A DNA stretch of 64,000 nt from Paenibacillus ginsengihumi DSM 21568 (GTDB taxonomy: Bacteria > Bacillota > Bacilli > Paenibacillales > NBRC-103111), in NCBI RefSeq assembly GCF_000380965.1, contig NZ_KB905562.1, forward strand, positions 1-64,000, read 5' to 3'. Shown here one piece after another: positions 250-60,960 of the stretch. The notes under the pieces were generated by a model. The model ran no database searches, was not told where the DNA came from, and worked only from the letters and a program-made list of their open reading frames with translations. Position 1 is the stretch's first letter, and the number at the start of each line of letters is the position of its first letter. The position numbers and the translations under genes were made by a program.

Positions 250-905
250 GGCTACATTCCGAATTCATGTTCAAATCTCTAACGCTTGTGACAAACGCTA
301 TTTTGCTGAATCGTACCGTTTTTAAAATGTAACGAAACGTAGTAACGCTATTGGGCCAGAAACGCTGAATCGGGTAGCTCAAAATGCCGAAGTAAGGCTG
401 CTCACTTGCGTTAGAATGTCAAAACGATCGTTTCGAGGGAAATAAGCTCTCTGGCTAGCGTTAGCCCTGGCAAAACAGCACCCTGGGCTAGCGGGCATGA
501 AGAGTGCTCCACGTCAGCGTTCGAGCTCCGCGTTAGCGCGGCCCCTCCCCGGGCACACCCCAGGCGCATGAAGCGACAAATCCTGCACAAAATGCAACAT
601 TTTCCGCCCCTTTCGCACCAGAGGAAGGGGAATGTTGCATTTTGTGCAACAATTTGAGCGCGATGGGCTTCAAACCCGGAAACATCGCCCGAAATGTTGC
701 ACATTTTACAACATTTAGCCGCAAATAGGGCCTATCCCCCTGTTTTTGTTGTACAAAATACAACATTTGCTGGCACTCTTGAAAATAGCCCGGGGTTCCG
801 GTTCATGTTCATCTTCTGATGGTGCTGCGCTAGGCGGTATGGGCGTCTTTAACCACGCAAATGACGACCGATGACGAGGGAATCGCTCGTCATCGGCGTC
901 GAAAA
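250..905 (-). repeat. Composite intergenic repeat, modules D-C-B-A (inverted copy)
   Basis: This stretch is the reverse complement of the composite at 46989-47730. Module D (about 278-466) carries repeated AACGCTATT and GCGTTAG motifs. Module C (about 535-778) carries four TGTTGYA-N5-TRCAACA palindromes. Module B (about 779-848) has the GGTGCTGCGC / GATGGTGC hairpin segments. A partial module A (849-905) keeps the GATGACGA...TCGTCATC hairpin. I see no gene. Short ORFs here are best read as products of the palindromes. Confidence 0.85.
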
Positions 906-4015: not shown

Positions 4016-4094
4016 GTCCCGGCGCATCGAACCGCGGACAACAGCGGCTCCGGCGACAGCGGCAAAAAATAGCGCTTGGTGCGCCGCGGCCCAT

Positions 4095-4560
4095 TTGCAC
4101 GATCTGATGGTGCCGCGCCAGCGGCATGGGCGTCTATCTTGAAAATTTGAAGGGGATCTACCTGAAAATTTTCTGGCACCGCAGGTGACGACCGATGACG
4201 AAGGAATCGCTCGTTACAGGCGTCTATCTTATTTGGCGATATCCGCCGGCAGATCGCCGCCAAATTTTCAAGTGACTCAGCAAATGTTGTATTTTGTACA
4301 ACAAAAACGGGGGGATAACTCGCATTTGCGGCTCAATGTTGTAGAATGTGCAACATTTCGGGCGATGTTCCCGGGTTTGAAGCAAAATGCGCCCAAAATG
4401 TTGCATAAAATGCAACATTCCCCTTCCTCTGGTACGAAAGATGCGGAAAATGTTGCATTTTGTGCAGGATTTGTCGTCTCACATGCCTGGGTATGCCCAG
4501 CCCAGGTGTGCCCGGGGTGGGGCAGCGCCAAAGCGGCGTGCGCCCGCCAGCGCGAGTGAG
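4095..4560 (+). repeat. Composite repeat: inverted B and A units followed by module C
   Basis: The 661-bp gap between the MFS gene and the response regulator holds a B-unit remnant (about 4098-4130) and a degenerate A unit (about 4131-4270), both reversed. A forward module C follows, with palindromes starting at 4285, 4337, 4399 and 4451. Spacings of 52, 62 and 52 bp match the other C copies. The tail 4560-4676 has short direct repeats of GCGAGTGA and GCGGAGT. No gene is supported here. Confidence 0.82.
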
Positions 4561-24665: not shown

Positions 24666-25021
24666 TCATCGGTCTTCAAGCATCACTTTCCCGTCGGAAA
24701 TCGTAAACGTGCGGTCACATAACAGCTGAATATCTTCCTTGTTGTGCGATGTCATTACGATTAATTTATGCTCTGCTTTCACAACGAGTAGTAGAGCGAT
24801 GGCAATATTGACCATCACATTGAGCAGCGTCATGGCAGGACTACTGAACTGAGGCAGGATATAAAAAAACGAAGAGCTCTGGTAGTGGCTGATCATCGCT
24901 AAAAAGATGGAAATGCCCCCCATGATCATATAAACGCTTGATTTCGTCAGCTTCAGCAATAGACAGATTTGAACGAGAACGATGATGATAAAAATACGTT
25001 CCTTTTCATTCGTTTATTCAT
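24666..25021 (-). pseudogene. Chimeric remnant: ABC permease fragment fused to an ABC ATPase C-terminus
   Basis: An ATG at 25021 overlaps the preceding gene stop (ATGAATAA), but its frame closes after 22 codons. Shifting one base at a T5 run restores a hydrophobic reading (FIIIVLVQICLLL) that continues through helices to residue 60. It then passes abruptly into MTSHNKEDIQLLCDRTFTISDGKV, which has the end of an ABC ATPase (H-loop SH, then DR...DGK). The ATPase core (Walker A and B) is absent. Best read as a permease gene joined to an ATPase gene by deletion, plus a frameshift. Confidence 0.65.
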
Positions 25022-25938
25022 AACAATCTCTCGATCTAAAAAAGATGACACCTATGAGTACCAGGTTCACGAATATCCATCCTCCAATGACGACAAATAC
25101 ATCTTCCCAAGTGATGATCGTCGTTAACGCACTGACCGCCCTAGGCTGAAGAATCATTCGGATGTTATAGGCAAAAAGGGCTGGAAATGAATCGAAAATA
25201 AAGTGAATGCCGTATAGCACAATGACCGGAATTAATAGCGCAGCATATTTGTTGGAAAAATGAAACAACATATTGATGCAAAGTGAAAACACAACAAATA
25301 ATGACATGGCGAGAGCGTTCAAAAACGTATAGATTTGAACCATGTACATAGGATGTGATGAAAACGCTTGATATACAAAGCTTCCTTCATGCGGAACTAA
25401 TCTATAGTAATACTCTGTCATAACCGTTGTATCAGGAAATAACATATAGGTCATCAAAATATTCATTTCTAAAATGACCAGCACGAAGCCAAACGATAGC
25501 AAGCCCGTTGATAAAAACTTCGAGAGCAAATACGTTTTTTTATCTTTTCGGATGATTTGATACATATACATTGAGGTCTGTTTATCCTGATAATAGACGC
25601 CTATGACGAGCGATTCCTGTCGTCATCGGTCGTCACCTGCGGTATTGAAATTTTGTCGGCGTATACCGCCAAATTTTCAAGATAGACTAAACCCGTAAGC
25701 AATGCGGCAAGAATCCAGAACATCATATTGTATAAGTTATTTCCCAGCTTACGGAATTCATTAACATCCAAAACTGAAACGGATTTTGCCCGATTGTCTT
25801 TGCCGAATCGATATCTTTGGAAAAGTGCAACGATACTGTAATCGGATCGATGATTGCAATCGCAAGCAGCAGTATAACTACGGCTATAACTTGTCTGCTT
25901 GTTAGTAGTCTCATCAGGTCAATTTTAAAATAATTCAC
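25014..25938 (-). pseudogene. ABC-2 type permease gene broken by frameshift and repeat insertion
   Basis: The N-terminal part (from 25938, GTG start behind GGAGG) reads MNYFKIDLMRLLTSRQVIA and has one helix, then closes at an early stop after WEITYTI. Shifting one base restores GNNLYNMMFWILAALL up to the edge of an 89-bp hairpin element (25593-25687). Beyond the element the frame resumes as YYQDKQTSMYMYQIIRKDKK and continues for about 185 residues with four or five more helices to 25014. Two separate lesions therefore inactivate it. Base composition is clearly more AT-rich than the flanks, suggesting acquisition by transfer. Confidence 0.75.
25593..25687 (+). mobile_element. Single 89-bp module A element inserted in a permease gene
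   Basis: ATAGAC occurs at 25593-25598 and again at 25682-25687, exactly 89 bp apart. The sequence between them is a module A unit with both hairpins (ATGACGA...TCGTCAT and TTGAAATTTTG...CAAATTTTCAA). The permease reading frame is recognisable on both sides, so this copy marks an insertion event. No coding capacity. Confidence 0.75.
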
Positions 25939-41702: not shown

Positions 41703-41905
41703 GTGGGCTAACGCAAGCCACAGAGCTTATTTCACTCGAAACGCACGATTTGAAATTGTAACGCAAGTGAGCAGCCTTATTGGGCTTTTTGGGCTGCCGG
41801 AATGAGTGTTTTCGACAAAATAGCGCTTCCCACCTGCGTTACATTTTAAAAAGGGGACGTTTTAGCAAAATAGCGTTTGTCACTGGCGTTAGAGATGATA
41901 AGAAA
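41703..41905 (+). repeat. Module D repeat
   Basis: This stretch matches the D part of 47540-47730 and, inverted, of 278-466. Shared words are GCTAACGC, CTAACGCAAGTGAGCAGCC, CGTTACATTTTAAAAA and CAAAATAGCGTTTGTCAC. Its ends carry opposed CTAACGC and GCGTTAG motifs. No gene is present. From here to 42150 I see only a weak inverted repeat (AACCGCT...AGCGGTT near 42017-42055). Confidence 0.8.
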
Positions 41906-42157
41906 TGATATTGTGATCCCGAAGGATCCCGCTTGGCCCGCTATTATCCTGCGGTTTATGCTGTTTAAGGCCGTGTCTGGCGGTTTGAGCTCTGATAACG
42001 GTTCCCCAACGCGAAACCGCTGGTGACTTTTCCTAGGTCATGGAGCGGTTTTCCTAACATCATTGTCTGCAGCAGGGAAACGACCGCGAAACCGCAGCCG
42101 CTCATCCTCGAAAGGGCCCCGATAACAAAACTAAAGCGAGGGGCACATTTTTTAATA

Positions 42158-42691
42158 GACGCCTATGCCGAGCGCTTCCTTTCGTCATCGGCCGTCACCT
42201 GCGGTGTTGAAATTTTGTCGGCGTATATCGCCAAATTTTCAAGAGAGACGCCTATGTCGAGCGCTTCCTTTCGTCATCGGCCGTCACCTGCGGTGTTGAA
42301 AATTCGCCGGCGGACCTCGTCAAATTTTCAAGAGAGACGCCTATGCCGAGCGCTTCCTTTCGTCATCGGCCGTCACCTGCGGTGTTGAAAATTCGCCGGC
42401 GGACCTCGTCAAATTTTCAAGAGAGACGCCTATGCCGAGCGTTTCCTTTCGTCATCGGCCGTCACCTGCGGTGTTGAAAATTCGCCGGCGGCCCTCGTCA
42501 AATTTTCAAGAGAGACGCCTATGCCGAGCGCTTCCTTTTGTCATCGGCCGTCACCTGTGGTGTTGAAAATTCGCCGGCGGACCTCGTTAAATTTTCAAGA
42601 GAGACGCCTATGCCGAGCGCTTCCTTTTGTCATCGGCCGTCACCTGTGGTGTTGAAAATTCGCCGGCGGACCTCGTTAAATTTTCAAGAGA
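42158..42691 (+). repeat. Six-copy tandem array of the 89-bp module A
   Basis: Units beginning GACGCCTATG start at 42158, 42247, 42336, 42425, 42514 and 42603, all exactly 89 bp apart. Each unit has an imperfect hairpin around CGAGCG...TCGTCATCGG and a second one closed by TTGAAAATT / AATTTTCAA. Units 5 and 6 share private substitutions (CCTTTTGTCATC, CCTGTGGTG), so they arose by recent duplication. There are no unique spacers, so this is not a CRISPR array. Module C follows directly. Confidence 0.95.
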
Positions 42692-42960
42692 GCGAGCAAA
42701 TGTTGTATTTTGTACAAAAAAACGGGGCAATAAACCGTATTTGCGGTTCAATGTTGCACAACGTGCAACATTTTGGGCGATGTTCCCGGGTTTAGAGCCA
42801 ATCGCCCCCAAATTGTTGCATGAAATACAATATTCTCCTTCCTTTTGGGCGAAGAATACAGAAAATGTTGCATTTTTTTGCAGGATTTTCCGTCTTGTGT
42901 GTTCGGGAAGGAGCCGCGCTAACGTGGAGTCCGAGCGCTAACATGGAGTTCTGCACGCTA
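42692..42960 (+). repeat. Module C repeat
   Basis: Joined to the last A unit at TTTTCAAGAGA. Palindromes of the form TGTTGYA-N5-TRCAACA begin at 42701, 42752, 42814 and 42866. The intervening GGGCGATGTTCCCGGGTTT segment is shared with the other C copies. The rest of the gap to the ZapA-like gene at 43231 shows no recognised feature. Confidence 0.85.
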
Positions 42961-46988: not shown

Positions 46989-47730
46989 GGCGTCTATGAC
47001 GAAGGGAGCTTCGCCATCGGATGTCACCTGCGGTGTTGAAAATTCGCCGAAGGACTTCGTCGAATTTTCAAGAGAGACGCCTATGACGAGCGATTCCTTA
47101 CGTCATCGGTCGCAGCTTCGGTGTTGAAATTTTGTCGGCGTATACCGCCAAATTTTCAAGATAGACCCCCATGCCGCTGGCGCAGCACCATCAGATGATG
47201 AAAATGGGCCGCGGACCGTGGGCTATTTTCAAGATAGTGAGCAAATGTTGTATTTTGTACAACAAAAACGGGGCAATCCACCCTATTTGCGGCTCAATGT
47301 TGTAAAAAGTGCAACAATTTGGGCGATATTCCCGGATTTGAAGTCAATCGCCCCTAAATTGTTGCACAAAATACAACATTCTCCTTCCTCTAGGGCGAAG
47401 AGACCGGAAAAAGTTGCAATTTTTGCAGGATTTGTCGCTTCATGCGCCTGGGGTGTGCCCGGGGAGGGGCCGCGCTTATGCGGAGCTCGAATGCTGACGT
47501 GGAGCGTCTCTTCATGCTCGCTAGTCTAGGTTGCTGTCTTGCCGGGCTAACGCTAGCCAGAGAGCTTATTTCGCTCGAAACGATCGATTTGACATTCTAA
47601 CGCAAGTGAGCAGCCTTATTTGGCATTTTGAGCTATCCGATTCAGCGTTTCTGGCCAAATAGCGTTACTACGTTTCGTTACATTTTAAAAACGGTACGAT
47701 TCAGCAAAATAGCGTTTGTCACGAGCGTTA
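46989..47730 (+). repeat. Composite repeat A-A-B-C-D
   Basis: Two A units (46989-47075 and 47076-47163) are followed by a B unit (47164-47236). Module C comes next, with palindromes at 47246, 47298, 47360 and 47412, and then module D (about 47540-47730). Junctions between A, B and C share TTTTCAAGA. This is the most complete copy of the composite and matches 250-848 in inverted order. Confidence 0.88.
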
Positions 47731-47790
47731 GAAATTCCGAAGCTTCGGCAGGGGCGCAGGAAGGGGCAGCGAGCCCCGGGCTATTTTCAA

Positions 47791-48012
47791 GATAGACGCC
47801 CATGCCGCTGGCGCAGCACCATCAGAAGGATGAAGATGGGCCGCGTCCCAAGCGCTATTTTCAAGATAGACGCCCATGCCGCTGGCGCAGCACCATCAGA
47901 TGGTGAAAATGGGCCGCGAGCCCCGGGCTATTTTCAAGATAGACGCCCATGCCGCTGGCGCAGCACCATCAGAAGATGAAAATGGGCTGCCCGCCCTGGG
48001 GGCTATTTTCAA
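47791..48012 (+). repeat. Three tandem module B units
   Basis: Units beginning GATAGACGCCCATGCC start at 47791, 47865 and 47938; the last ends at 48012. Lengths are 74, 73 and 75 bp. Each has an outer pairing GCCCAT/ATGGGC, an inner GCTG-GCG-CAGC hairpin and a second hairpin near CACCATCAGATGGTG. They lie directly upstream of the hprK-like gene and may overlap its promoter. Confidence 0.88.
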
Positions 48013-48073
48013 GATTCCGTCCAATTTTTCAAGCTAGAATAGATATGAGAAATCGAAGGAGAGCATAACCTAT

Positions 48074-55760: not shown

Positions 55761-55853
55761 GGGCTATTTTCAAGATAGACGCCCATGCCGCTGGCGCAGC
55801 ACCATCAGCAAGGATGAAAACGGGCCGCGCACCAAGCGCTATTTTCAAGATAG
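55761..55853 (+). repeat. Single module B unit in the 3' region of the MFS gene
   Basis: One 75-bp B unit (GATAGACGCCCATGCC at 55774 to the next GATAG at 55849) is bounded by GCTATTTTCAAGATAG on both sides. From 55854 to 56118 I see no gene and no clear repeat. Confidence 0.85.
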
Positions 55854-57042: not shown

Positions 57043-57046
57043 GCGA

Positions 57047-57135
57047 GACGCCGATGACGAGCGATTCCTGTCGTCGCGGTCGTTACCTGCGGTGTTGAAA
57101 ATTCGCCGAAGGGCTTCGTCGAATATTCAAGTATG
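57047..57135 (+). repeat. Single module A unit in the cysK 3' region
   Basis: An 89-bp A unit starts 4 bp after the cysK stop and runs straight into the cysK terminator at 57136. Hairpin 1 is CCGATGACGA...TCGTCGCGG. Hairpin 2 is TTGAAAATTCG-C-CGAAG-GG-CTTCG-T-CGAATATTCAA. Confidence 0.88.
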
Positions 57136-59789: not shown

Positions 59790-60110
59790 AGACGCCGATG
59801 ACGAGCGATTCCTTCCATACATTGGTCGCCGCCATGCTCGCCAGCCTCGATGGTTGCTTTACCCGGCTAACGCTTGCCACAGAGCTTGTTTCATTCGGCT
59901 TTGAAATTGCTGCGAGGAATGATTCGCCCAGAGACCTATGCAGGTCTATTCGACAAAATTCCGGCTTCGCGCCGGCGAAACGATTTGCTTTGAGCCTTTG
60001 GGCTAGTATATGATAAGATGAGGCGAGCGAATCCTGTCGTCATCGGCTGTCGCCTGCGGTGTTGAAAATTCAGCGTTTGGTTGCTTCGCCTGCTGAAAAT
60101 TTGCTGACGA
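59790..60110 (+). repeat. Degenerate repeat region (A and D fragments)
   Basis: ATAGACGCCGATGACGAGCGATTCC at 59788-59812 is an A-unit start that degrades after the first hairpin. GCTAACGC-like D words follow (GGCTAACGCTTGCCACAGAGCTTG). A second decayed A unit lies at about 60022-60100 (TGTCGTCATCGG, then GTGTTGAAAATTC). No gene is present. Confidence 0.7.
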
Positions 60111-60693: not shown

Positions 60694-60719
60694 CCGTAAG
60701 CTATGCTCATATATCATCC

Positions 60720-60960
60720 TTTCAGGTGCTTGCCGCATCCTCGCCGATGCGTCAGGGTAAAAGGGAAGCCGGTGCGAATCCGGCACGGTCCCGCCACTGT
60801 GAATGGATATAAGCTTCCGCATCAGCCACTGCCTGCAAGAGACGCGGGCGGGAAGGAGCGGAAAGCCGCGAAGCTGCCGCTTCGCATCCATGATTCAGGA
60901 AACCTGCCTGCAAAAGGGTTATGGTCGCATCCTTTCGAGGAAGAGGAGGCACCGCGGACT
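60720..60960 (+). promoter_or_regulatory. Cobalamin (AdoCbl) riboswitch
   Basis: The aptamer core is clear: AAGCCGGTGCGAATCCGGC at 60766-60784 and GCCACTGT at 60793-60800. The B12-box region includes GCCACTGCCTGCAAG and GACGCGGGCGGGAAGG. It leads to a terminator at 61026 and then btuF. Ligand binding is expected to favour the terminator and switch off the B12 uptake genes. Confidence 0.93.

Follow-up and report, generated by a model that had tools for sequence, protein, structure and literature searches.

Recombination guided by a bridge RNA was described in 2024 for insertion sequences (IS) of the IS110 family and discussed as a tool, and a 22-bp donor moved with the bridge RNA supplied from elsewhere (PMC11208160; this and the other papers are cited for the available parts of their text). 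Bacterial miniature inverted-repeat transposable elements (MITEs), such as MITEPye1 of IS1182 type and SMN1, are short elements without genes that retain the ends of their parent IS and are presumed to be moved in trans (PMC11578231, PMC3718332). Repetitive extragenic palindromes (REP) and bacterial interspersed mosaic elements (BIME), with their REP-associated tyrosine transposases (RAYT), amount to more than a hundred short palindromes grouped into composite arrays (PMC2817692), and tandem interspaced guide RNA (TIGR) arrays of TIGR-Tas systems are tandem units linked to an IS110-type guide RNA (PMC12045711). Here we describe an 89-bp insert at position 25593 of a 64,000-nucleotide stretch of Paenibacillus ginsengihumi DSM 21568 (contig NZ_KB905562.1, positions 1 to 64,000; hereafter the window), together with the mosaic repeat family to which it belongs. 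These repeats are likely to be non-autonomous miniature IS110 derivatives, probably moved in trans.

The units resemble IS110 elements with a bridge RNA or seekRNA (IS621, ISEc21) in that their ends are identical or near identical to those of real IS110 elements and they share an AG core; left-end guides of parent-like IS match target and right end, and right end and left end meet in a tandem junction. Unlike IS110 elements of about 1.6 kb, the units measure about 60 to 129 bp, carry neither transposase nor guide loops and occur in hundreds of copies in their own genome. The 89-bp unit is too short to hold a gene, and the transposase domain PF01548 is found in the parent-like IS of two relatives, G023 and G012. 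Short, gene-less and with the ends of a parent IS, the units are comparable to MITEs, but they show no variable target duplication, their parent would be an RNA-guided recombinase and they form head-to-tail arrays. They are only MITE-like because they lack terminal inverted repeats (left ATAGACGCC against right complement CTATCTTGAAA, compared by eye). In contrast to REP/BIME, the units lie in direct rather than alternating orientation and have IS110 ends, and no Y1 transposase was found in the draft genome. The likeness to TIGR arrays is probably superficial, as the units are dispersed over many loci and have no guide loops.

The hexamer ATAGAC stands on the plus strand at 25593-25598 and again at 25682-25687, and the spacing of 89 bp given in the preliminary description for the two ends of one type A unit was borne out. 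The pair alone is weak evidence, because the window holds 33 copies of ATAGAC (10.02 expected) and identical 6-mer pairs spaced 89 bp start at 31 positions outside the array at 42 kb, 25593 among them. The 89-bp unit is nevertheless not a chance repeat. A 161-bp region used as a DNA query matched 1 of 60 genomes, its own, where it had at least 62 matches, counting itself. Of 417 first-look candidates, 40 were scored, and among the scored matches one further copy was 100% identical over all 95 bp and three over 93 bp.

The host gene, on the minus strand, is recognisable on both sides of the insert, as a 3' piece of 185 amino acids (25014..25571) and a 5' piece with a 71-amino-acid open reading frame (25723..25938). 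Orthologues with an open frame across the site are present in G002 (L081, 71% amino acid identity) and G039 (L080, 66%); these two and its own genome gave the only three matches to the host gene among the 60 genomes searched, the other 57 having none. When aligned separately to the orthologue, the two window flanks converge on one shared hexamer position (L081:1474-1479). Because both orthologues show an empty site with a single hexamer position, the comparison supports a gain of 89 bp by insertion (25597..25685, plus strand; AC GCC ... CAAG ATAG; nhmmer match to type A, 98 bits) in a broken, membrane-protein-like gene. The insertion proposed earlier thus stands, as does the interruption of a gene, but the naming of that gene as a transporter permease was not confirmed: neither the 185-amino-acid piece nor the intact orthologue matched a Pfam family at E 0.01. 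The empty site had been expected to read ATAGAC; its plus-strand letters are GTAGAT in G002 and ATAAAT in G039, which at a DNA identity of about 70-75% may differ from the ancestral ones.

The family comprises two types, A (about 89 bp) and B (about 73 bp). Type A reads ATAG ACGCCTATGACGA...TCGTCAT CGGTCGTCACCTGCGGTGTTGAAAATT (variable) AATTTTCAAG ATAG, and type B reads ATAG ACGCCCATGCCGC...GCAGCACCATCAGATGATGAAAAT (variable) TATTTTCAAG ATAG. Both have the same start and end and a left hairpin each, and their left and right parts can form a closing right hairpin. For the left hairpin of A (ATGACGA...TCGTCAT, 25603..25626 on the plus strand in the insert), RNAalifold of 22 left ends gave 12 pairs, 2 with changes on both sides, and a slightly unfavourable covariation term (+0.34). 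The right hairpin (TTGAAATTT...AAATTTTCAA, 25645..25680, plus strand) had a mean z of -2.55 against mononucleotide shuffles over 51 distinct versions (31 below -2), compared with only -1.16 for the inner parts of A alone and a weaker -1.26 for the right hairpin of B.

Both types are numerous in this genome and scarce elsewhere. With up to two mismatches, the junction TTTTCAAGANAGACGCC occurs 328 times in the 5.68-Mb draft, against once for the reversed pattern; with no more than one mismatch the count is 247, and none of 103 other genomes of the family has more than 3. The B left-end motif was searched with up to three mismatches, a setting that does not pick up the diverged copies in G014 and G016; it was found 122 times in its own genome, 7 times in G002 and once or twice in six others, while 17 of 25 genomes had none. 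In 60 fetched regions plus the window we identified 230 units (132 A, 98 B). Of the 90 arrays kept, 47 were mixed, 26 were of one type only and 17 were single units. They come from regions picked around matches rather than from the whole genome, after removal of matches below 15 bits, of lower-scoring matches where a better one overlapped, and of arrays in which no unit reached 35 bits. No array lay inside a gene predicted by a simple gene finder, which misses the AT-rich host gene of the 25593 insert. Copies sit at, or within 0.3 kb of, the ends of contigs C14, C28, C33, C42, C65, C66, C69 and C97 of the draft (G000); the draft is therefore probably broken by the repeat, and the copy numbers are lower bounds.

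The B left end was first met outside its own genome when relatives were searched for the window neighbourhood. In G023 it opens an element of 1589 bp, in which a left end (TTAGACGCCCATGCCGCTAACGCGGCACCATCAGATGATGAAAAT) identical to the B consensus at 41 of 45 positions is followed by about 250 bp of non-coding DNA, a DEDD transposase (PF01548, E 5.8e-38; frame-broken in that copy) and a right end (...ATATTTTCAAGATAG) common to B. G003 and G012 have intact transposases of 406 amino acids bounded by ends of this kind, and relatives of the transposase (E 1e-30 or better) occur in 52 of 103 genomes, that of P. ginsengihumi included at 38% identity. As judged from sequence, the ends of the units correspond to real IS110 ends, along the whole left end for B and at the terminal bases for A, where only about 13 and 14 bp match by eye. 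The insert at 25593 likewise has donor ends as in IS110 (left AG|ACGCC.ATG, right ATTTTCAAGAT-AG) without a transposase. Several IS copies in G012 and G013 are alike as far as an AG on the left and on the right, beyond which only a short target is still shared. In 7 copies at 5 places in G012 and in 4 copies in G013, B-like sequence is part of the IS and is common up to AG|AC or AG|CC. In G010 the left target ends in GATAAG and the right end is CAGGGCAG; the core common to the two is therefore AG.

Miniature copies were also seen outside P. ginsengihumi. Region L137:5046-5469 of G002 is a miniature array in another species: four units, each about 129 bp long, follow one another in tandem, every one with a left end like that of B and with TATTTCAGGAGAG at its right end. 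In G014 (L135, L139) there are three B-like copies of about 60 bp with the right end TATTTCAGGATAG, two of them within a duplicated segment of about 0.9 kb.

The left non-coding region of the full IS contains a loop whose sequence is the same as, or close to, the left target of the copy in which it lies. Over 35 copies, this putative target guide agreed with the left flank at a mean of 4.71 of 5 positions outside the core (5 of 5 in all rows but six, of which four matched at 4, one at 3 and one at 1); the row at 1 of 5 is the second tandem copy in L177, which is flanked by a right end. When one copy was taken per guide (8 guides), agreement was 4.75 for own pairs and 2.13 for cross pairs, and 2 of 100000 permutations were as good. 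Eight loci gave no target-guide row by pattern; by eye, L178 matches and L171 (the G016 copy) does so only partly. A second loop, the putative donor guide, matches the right end: in 10 distinct pairs the agreement was 5.6 of 6 positions, two of which are fixed on the right-end side by the search pattern, compared with 4.09 for cross pairs (0 of 50000 permutations). That comparison excludes 12 of 41 rows without a single right-end match and 4 more without the donor-guide motif. A donor guide CAAGATAG, equal to the units' own right end, is present in G010 (L178) and G001 (L191). The donor loop of the G012 lineage includes, in its 3' part, GGTTGT, which is complementary to the left end ACAACC; other lineages show this match only partially.

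Folding 15 IS left ends gave a stem with two internal loops and an outer stem GGCUGG/CCAGCC, in which 8 of 41 pairs had changes on both sides. The predicted arrangement is that of the IS110 bridge RNA as laid out in the available part of PMC11208160. Guides are thus a property of the full IS of relatives, the miniature elements themselves having no guide loops. Bridge-RNA-like regions with covarying target and donor guides were seen at L132:1035-1287 and in L174, L177, L185, L180 and L189, among others; Rfam 15 gave no match in L132-L134 at E 1.

IS110 elements do insert in REP sequences, as IS621 does (PMC11208160), and IS1111 inserts in MITEs, namely QMITE2 of Coxiella (PMC5896051). Our units could accordingly be independent REP-like palindromic repeats into which the IS110 of relatives merely inserts, and being mostly intergenic, palindromic and numerous they would suit that role. 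We consider this unlikely, as the B-like sequence of the G012 and G013 copies lies inside the IS, with the DNA further left differing beyond the short target, and both guides match the outer boundary rather than the junction between B and the rest of the IS.

The array with an 89-bp period noted earlier at 42 kb consists of six A units (42155..42692, plus strand). It had been suggested that the element's own end permits insertion beside itself; this fits the tandem complete IS copies of G012, where two pairs with a period of 1579 have the same kind of junction (TTTTCAGGATAG|ACAACC). Repeated insertion explains the arrays in part. A units differed less within an array than between arrays (distance 0.146 vs 0.219; 0 of 2000 permutations), as, slightly, did B units (0.161 vs 0.182; 16 of 2000), and 18 of 57 A units had their nearest neighbour in their own array (1.0 expected). 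This greater likeness of A units within an array indicates that some arrays, the one at 42155 among them, also grew by local duplication. Mixed arrays require insertion or exchange. The nearest copies of the 25593 unit are at other loci, and since four of these differ from it by about one position in 90, their sequences suggest recent movement of units of this type. A passive spread, by slippage and by recombination or gene conversion between intergenic copies without any transposase, would account for the likeness of units within arrays and for the mosaic A/B order in 47 of 90 arrays. It is nonetheless very unlikely to be the explanation, given that a single unit is cleanly inserted in a gene for which the exact empty site is seen, and that near-identical copies lie at unrelated loci.

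The boundaries bear on how the insert was made. The 50 outer left ends have the consensus (G)ATAG, with G in 42, A in 37, T in 32 and A in 35 of the 50 at positions -1 to -4; outer right ends are exactly ATAG in 44 of 75 and AGAG in 12. The AC after the right ATAG of the insert (25686-25687) is not common to right flanks and belongs to the host gene. What target and both element ends have in common is a short core, without a variable target duplication. Judged on these comparisons, IS110-type recombination would explain both copies of ATAG: the one at 25593..25596 (plus strand) as left target plus core AG, equal to the IS110 left target and core, and the one at 25682..25685 (plus strand) as the element's own right end with the donor-side core, as in the IS right ends CAAGATAG and CAGGATAG.

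The preliminary description had instead read ATAGAC on both sides as a 6-bp target duplication, left by ordinary transposition, and a single hexamer position at the orthologous site would agree with it. A plain duplication would differ from site to site, however, yet the ends share (G)ATAG. The repeat is shorter than six bases and is drawn to one sequence at all loci, which fits an element with target specificity, and the orthologous hexamers are GTAGAT and ATAAAT, so we regard a 6-bp duplication as highly improbable. An REP/RAYT or IS200/IS605-type element, which a Y1 transposase would place behind a tetranucleotide in single-stranded form, would have the asymmetric ends, hairpins, short common tetranucleotide and missing inverted repeats seen here, but is scarcely credible with the ends of a DEDD IS and no match to PF01797 in the draft (control positive in 5 of 14 genomes).

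We therefore return to movement of the units as miniature IS110 derivatives. A full IS110 would supply the DEDD recombinase and the bridge RNA in trans, and the recombinase would cut the miniature element at its AG core. Its ends would then be joined into a circle, in the order right end, core, left end, and the circle would recombine with whatever site the target loop reads, which is (G)ATAG in this case. After recombination AG, and mostly ATAG, would remain on both sides with no true target duplication. Because the right end of the element repeats the target plus core and itself reads GATAG, a resident copy could also serve as a target, and A and B units could be strung head to tail, with local duplication adding to the arrays. 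The simplest reading is that A and B, with the donor sequence CAAGATAG on the right and ACGCC on the left, are donors moved in trans. From these data we infer mobilisation in trans, the circle and movement of A as well as B by the same IS lineage.

We put forward a broader proposal more tentatively, as a serious possibility but not as our expectation. In nature, a bridge-RNA recombinase acting in trans may move any DNA framed by about a dozen right-end and a dozen left-end bases around AG. A units might be such parasites, with only their ends from an IS, and a right end that imitates the target might have let them assemble themselves into head-to-tail arrays and reach several hundred intergenic copies. 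If true, a natural family of gene-less donors would show what a minimal donor is, that mobilisation in trans takes place on the scale of a genome, and how far specificity can loosen, here to about five bases. A large class of the mosaic repeats between genes of this genome would also be accounted for, and tandem growth at the right end-left end junction would have a natural example. No IS110-derived miniature element was described in the available parts of the literature searched (PMC11208160, PMC11187229, PMC3718332, PMC9769881, PMC3189936, PMC12859917, PMC11578231, PMC5896051, PMC12045711, PMC10969869); most subscription journals and ISfinder lay outside that search, which is hence no proof of novelty.

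Several results weigh against an origin from IS110. No IS with A- or B-like ends was found among the 3 PF01548 matches of the draft genome, two of which run off contig ends with their right ends out of view, and the best match there to the G023 transposase is the one at 38% identity. Three bridge-RNA motifs gave 0 matches in the 238,973 bases fetched from this genome, which are part of it. For the interior of A, no IS counterpart was found. A covariance model of the A left end gave only weak matches (35 bits or less) in 5 of 102 other genomes, and among these genomes it found no IS with an A-type left end. At the boundaries, exact ATAG is present at only 19 of 50 outer left ends, the left-target consensus spans about 5 bases in the units compared with about 7 in the full IS, and the donor guide of G023 differs from its own right end at one position. 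Local duplication takes over part of what insertion would explain in the arrays. Growth of arrays at the right end was also considered and set aside: the A subtype of the 25593 insert stood last in 15 of 30 arrays against 11.2 expected, a value reached by 10.5% of random draws and not significant. Finally, the host gene is not a clean test case for insertion. Its 5' piece has another frame break, before the insert, and about 1.1 kb of the G002 operon is unmatched in the 3.5 kb of window compared; for these reasons it was, or became, a decaying gene.

The IS110 copies of the draft genome were examined as candidate mobilisers and rejected, their ends being unlike those of the units (best B score 4.3 bits, 0 A matches). 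An A-like hairpin element is present in G010 (L194, 35 bits) and G012 (L198, 23 bits), seemingly at one shared intergenic place, between genes that, from their translations, resemble rseP and proS.

Other units in the window were compared with six syntenic stretches of relatives (L113-L118), in which no A or B unit scored above 7.7 bits. The gap holding the 42155 array is 1740 bp long in the window; of six relatives, four have 231-236 bp there and the other two 437 and 1447 bp. A single B unit at 55775..55853 (plus strand) lies in a gap of 371 bp; the five relatives that yielded a pair have 33-85 bp there, and the sixth yielded none. The gap around a single A unit directly after a gene (57046..57131, plus strand) has no excess length (622 bp vs 609-828 bp), and the result for a partial A unit (60022..60080, plus strand) was mixed, with 777 bp here and 523, 525, 614 and 1470 bp in four relatives. 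For a mixed array A-A-B (46989..47237, plus strand) and an array of B units, the first partial (47761..48015, plus strand), the right anchor was found in 0 of 6 relatives. The minus strand carries an A-B pair at 4066..4227 and another, followed by a repeat we call C, at 775..900.

Repeat C (GCAAATGTTGTATTTTGTACAACA...) abuts the right end in 25 of 86 arrays with enough flank, after 0 of 19 units of the A subtype of the 25593 insert, 17 of 34 B units and 8 of 33 other A units; examples are at 42694-42900 and 47237-47300 of the window and in L010, L022 and L048. A further repeat, ...AAAATAGCGTTTGTCAC..GCGTTAGA, lies left of two arrays (41800-41890 and 47640-47740). Some arrays seem to give an adjoining predicted gene its stop codon, at their right ends in L027, L060 and L061 and at their left ends in L010, L022 and L033, so insertions may have trimmed the ends of these genes. 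A promoter or 5' untranslated region role was rejected: several arrays lie just before a start, but the orientation bias is only weak (27 same vs 16 opposite, in co-directional gene pairs). At gathering score, the sole Rfam 15 match in the window is a cobalamin riboswitch located elsewhere, at 60707-60925 (95 bits).
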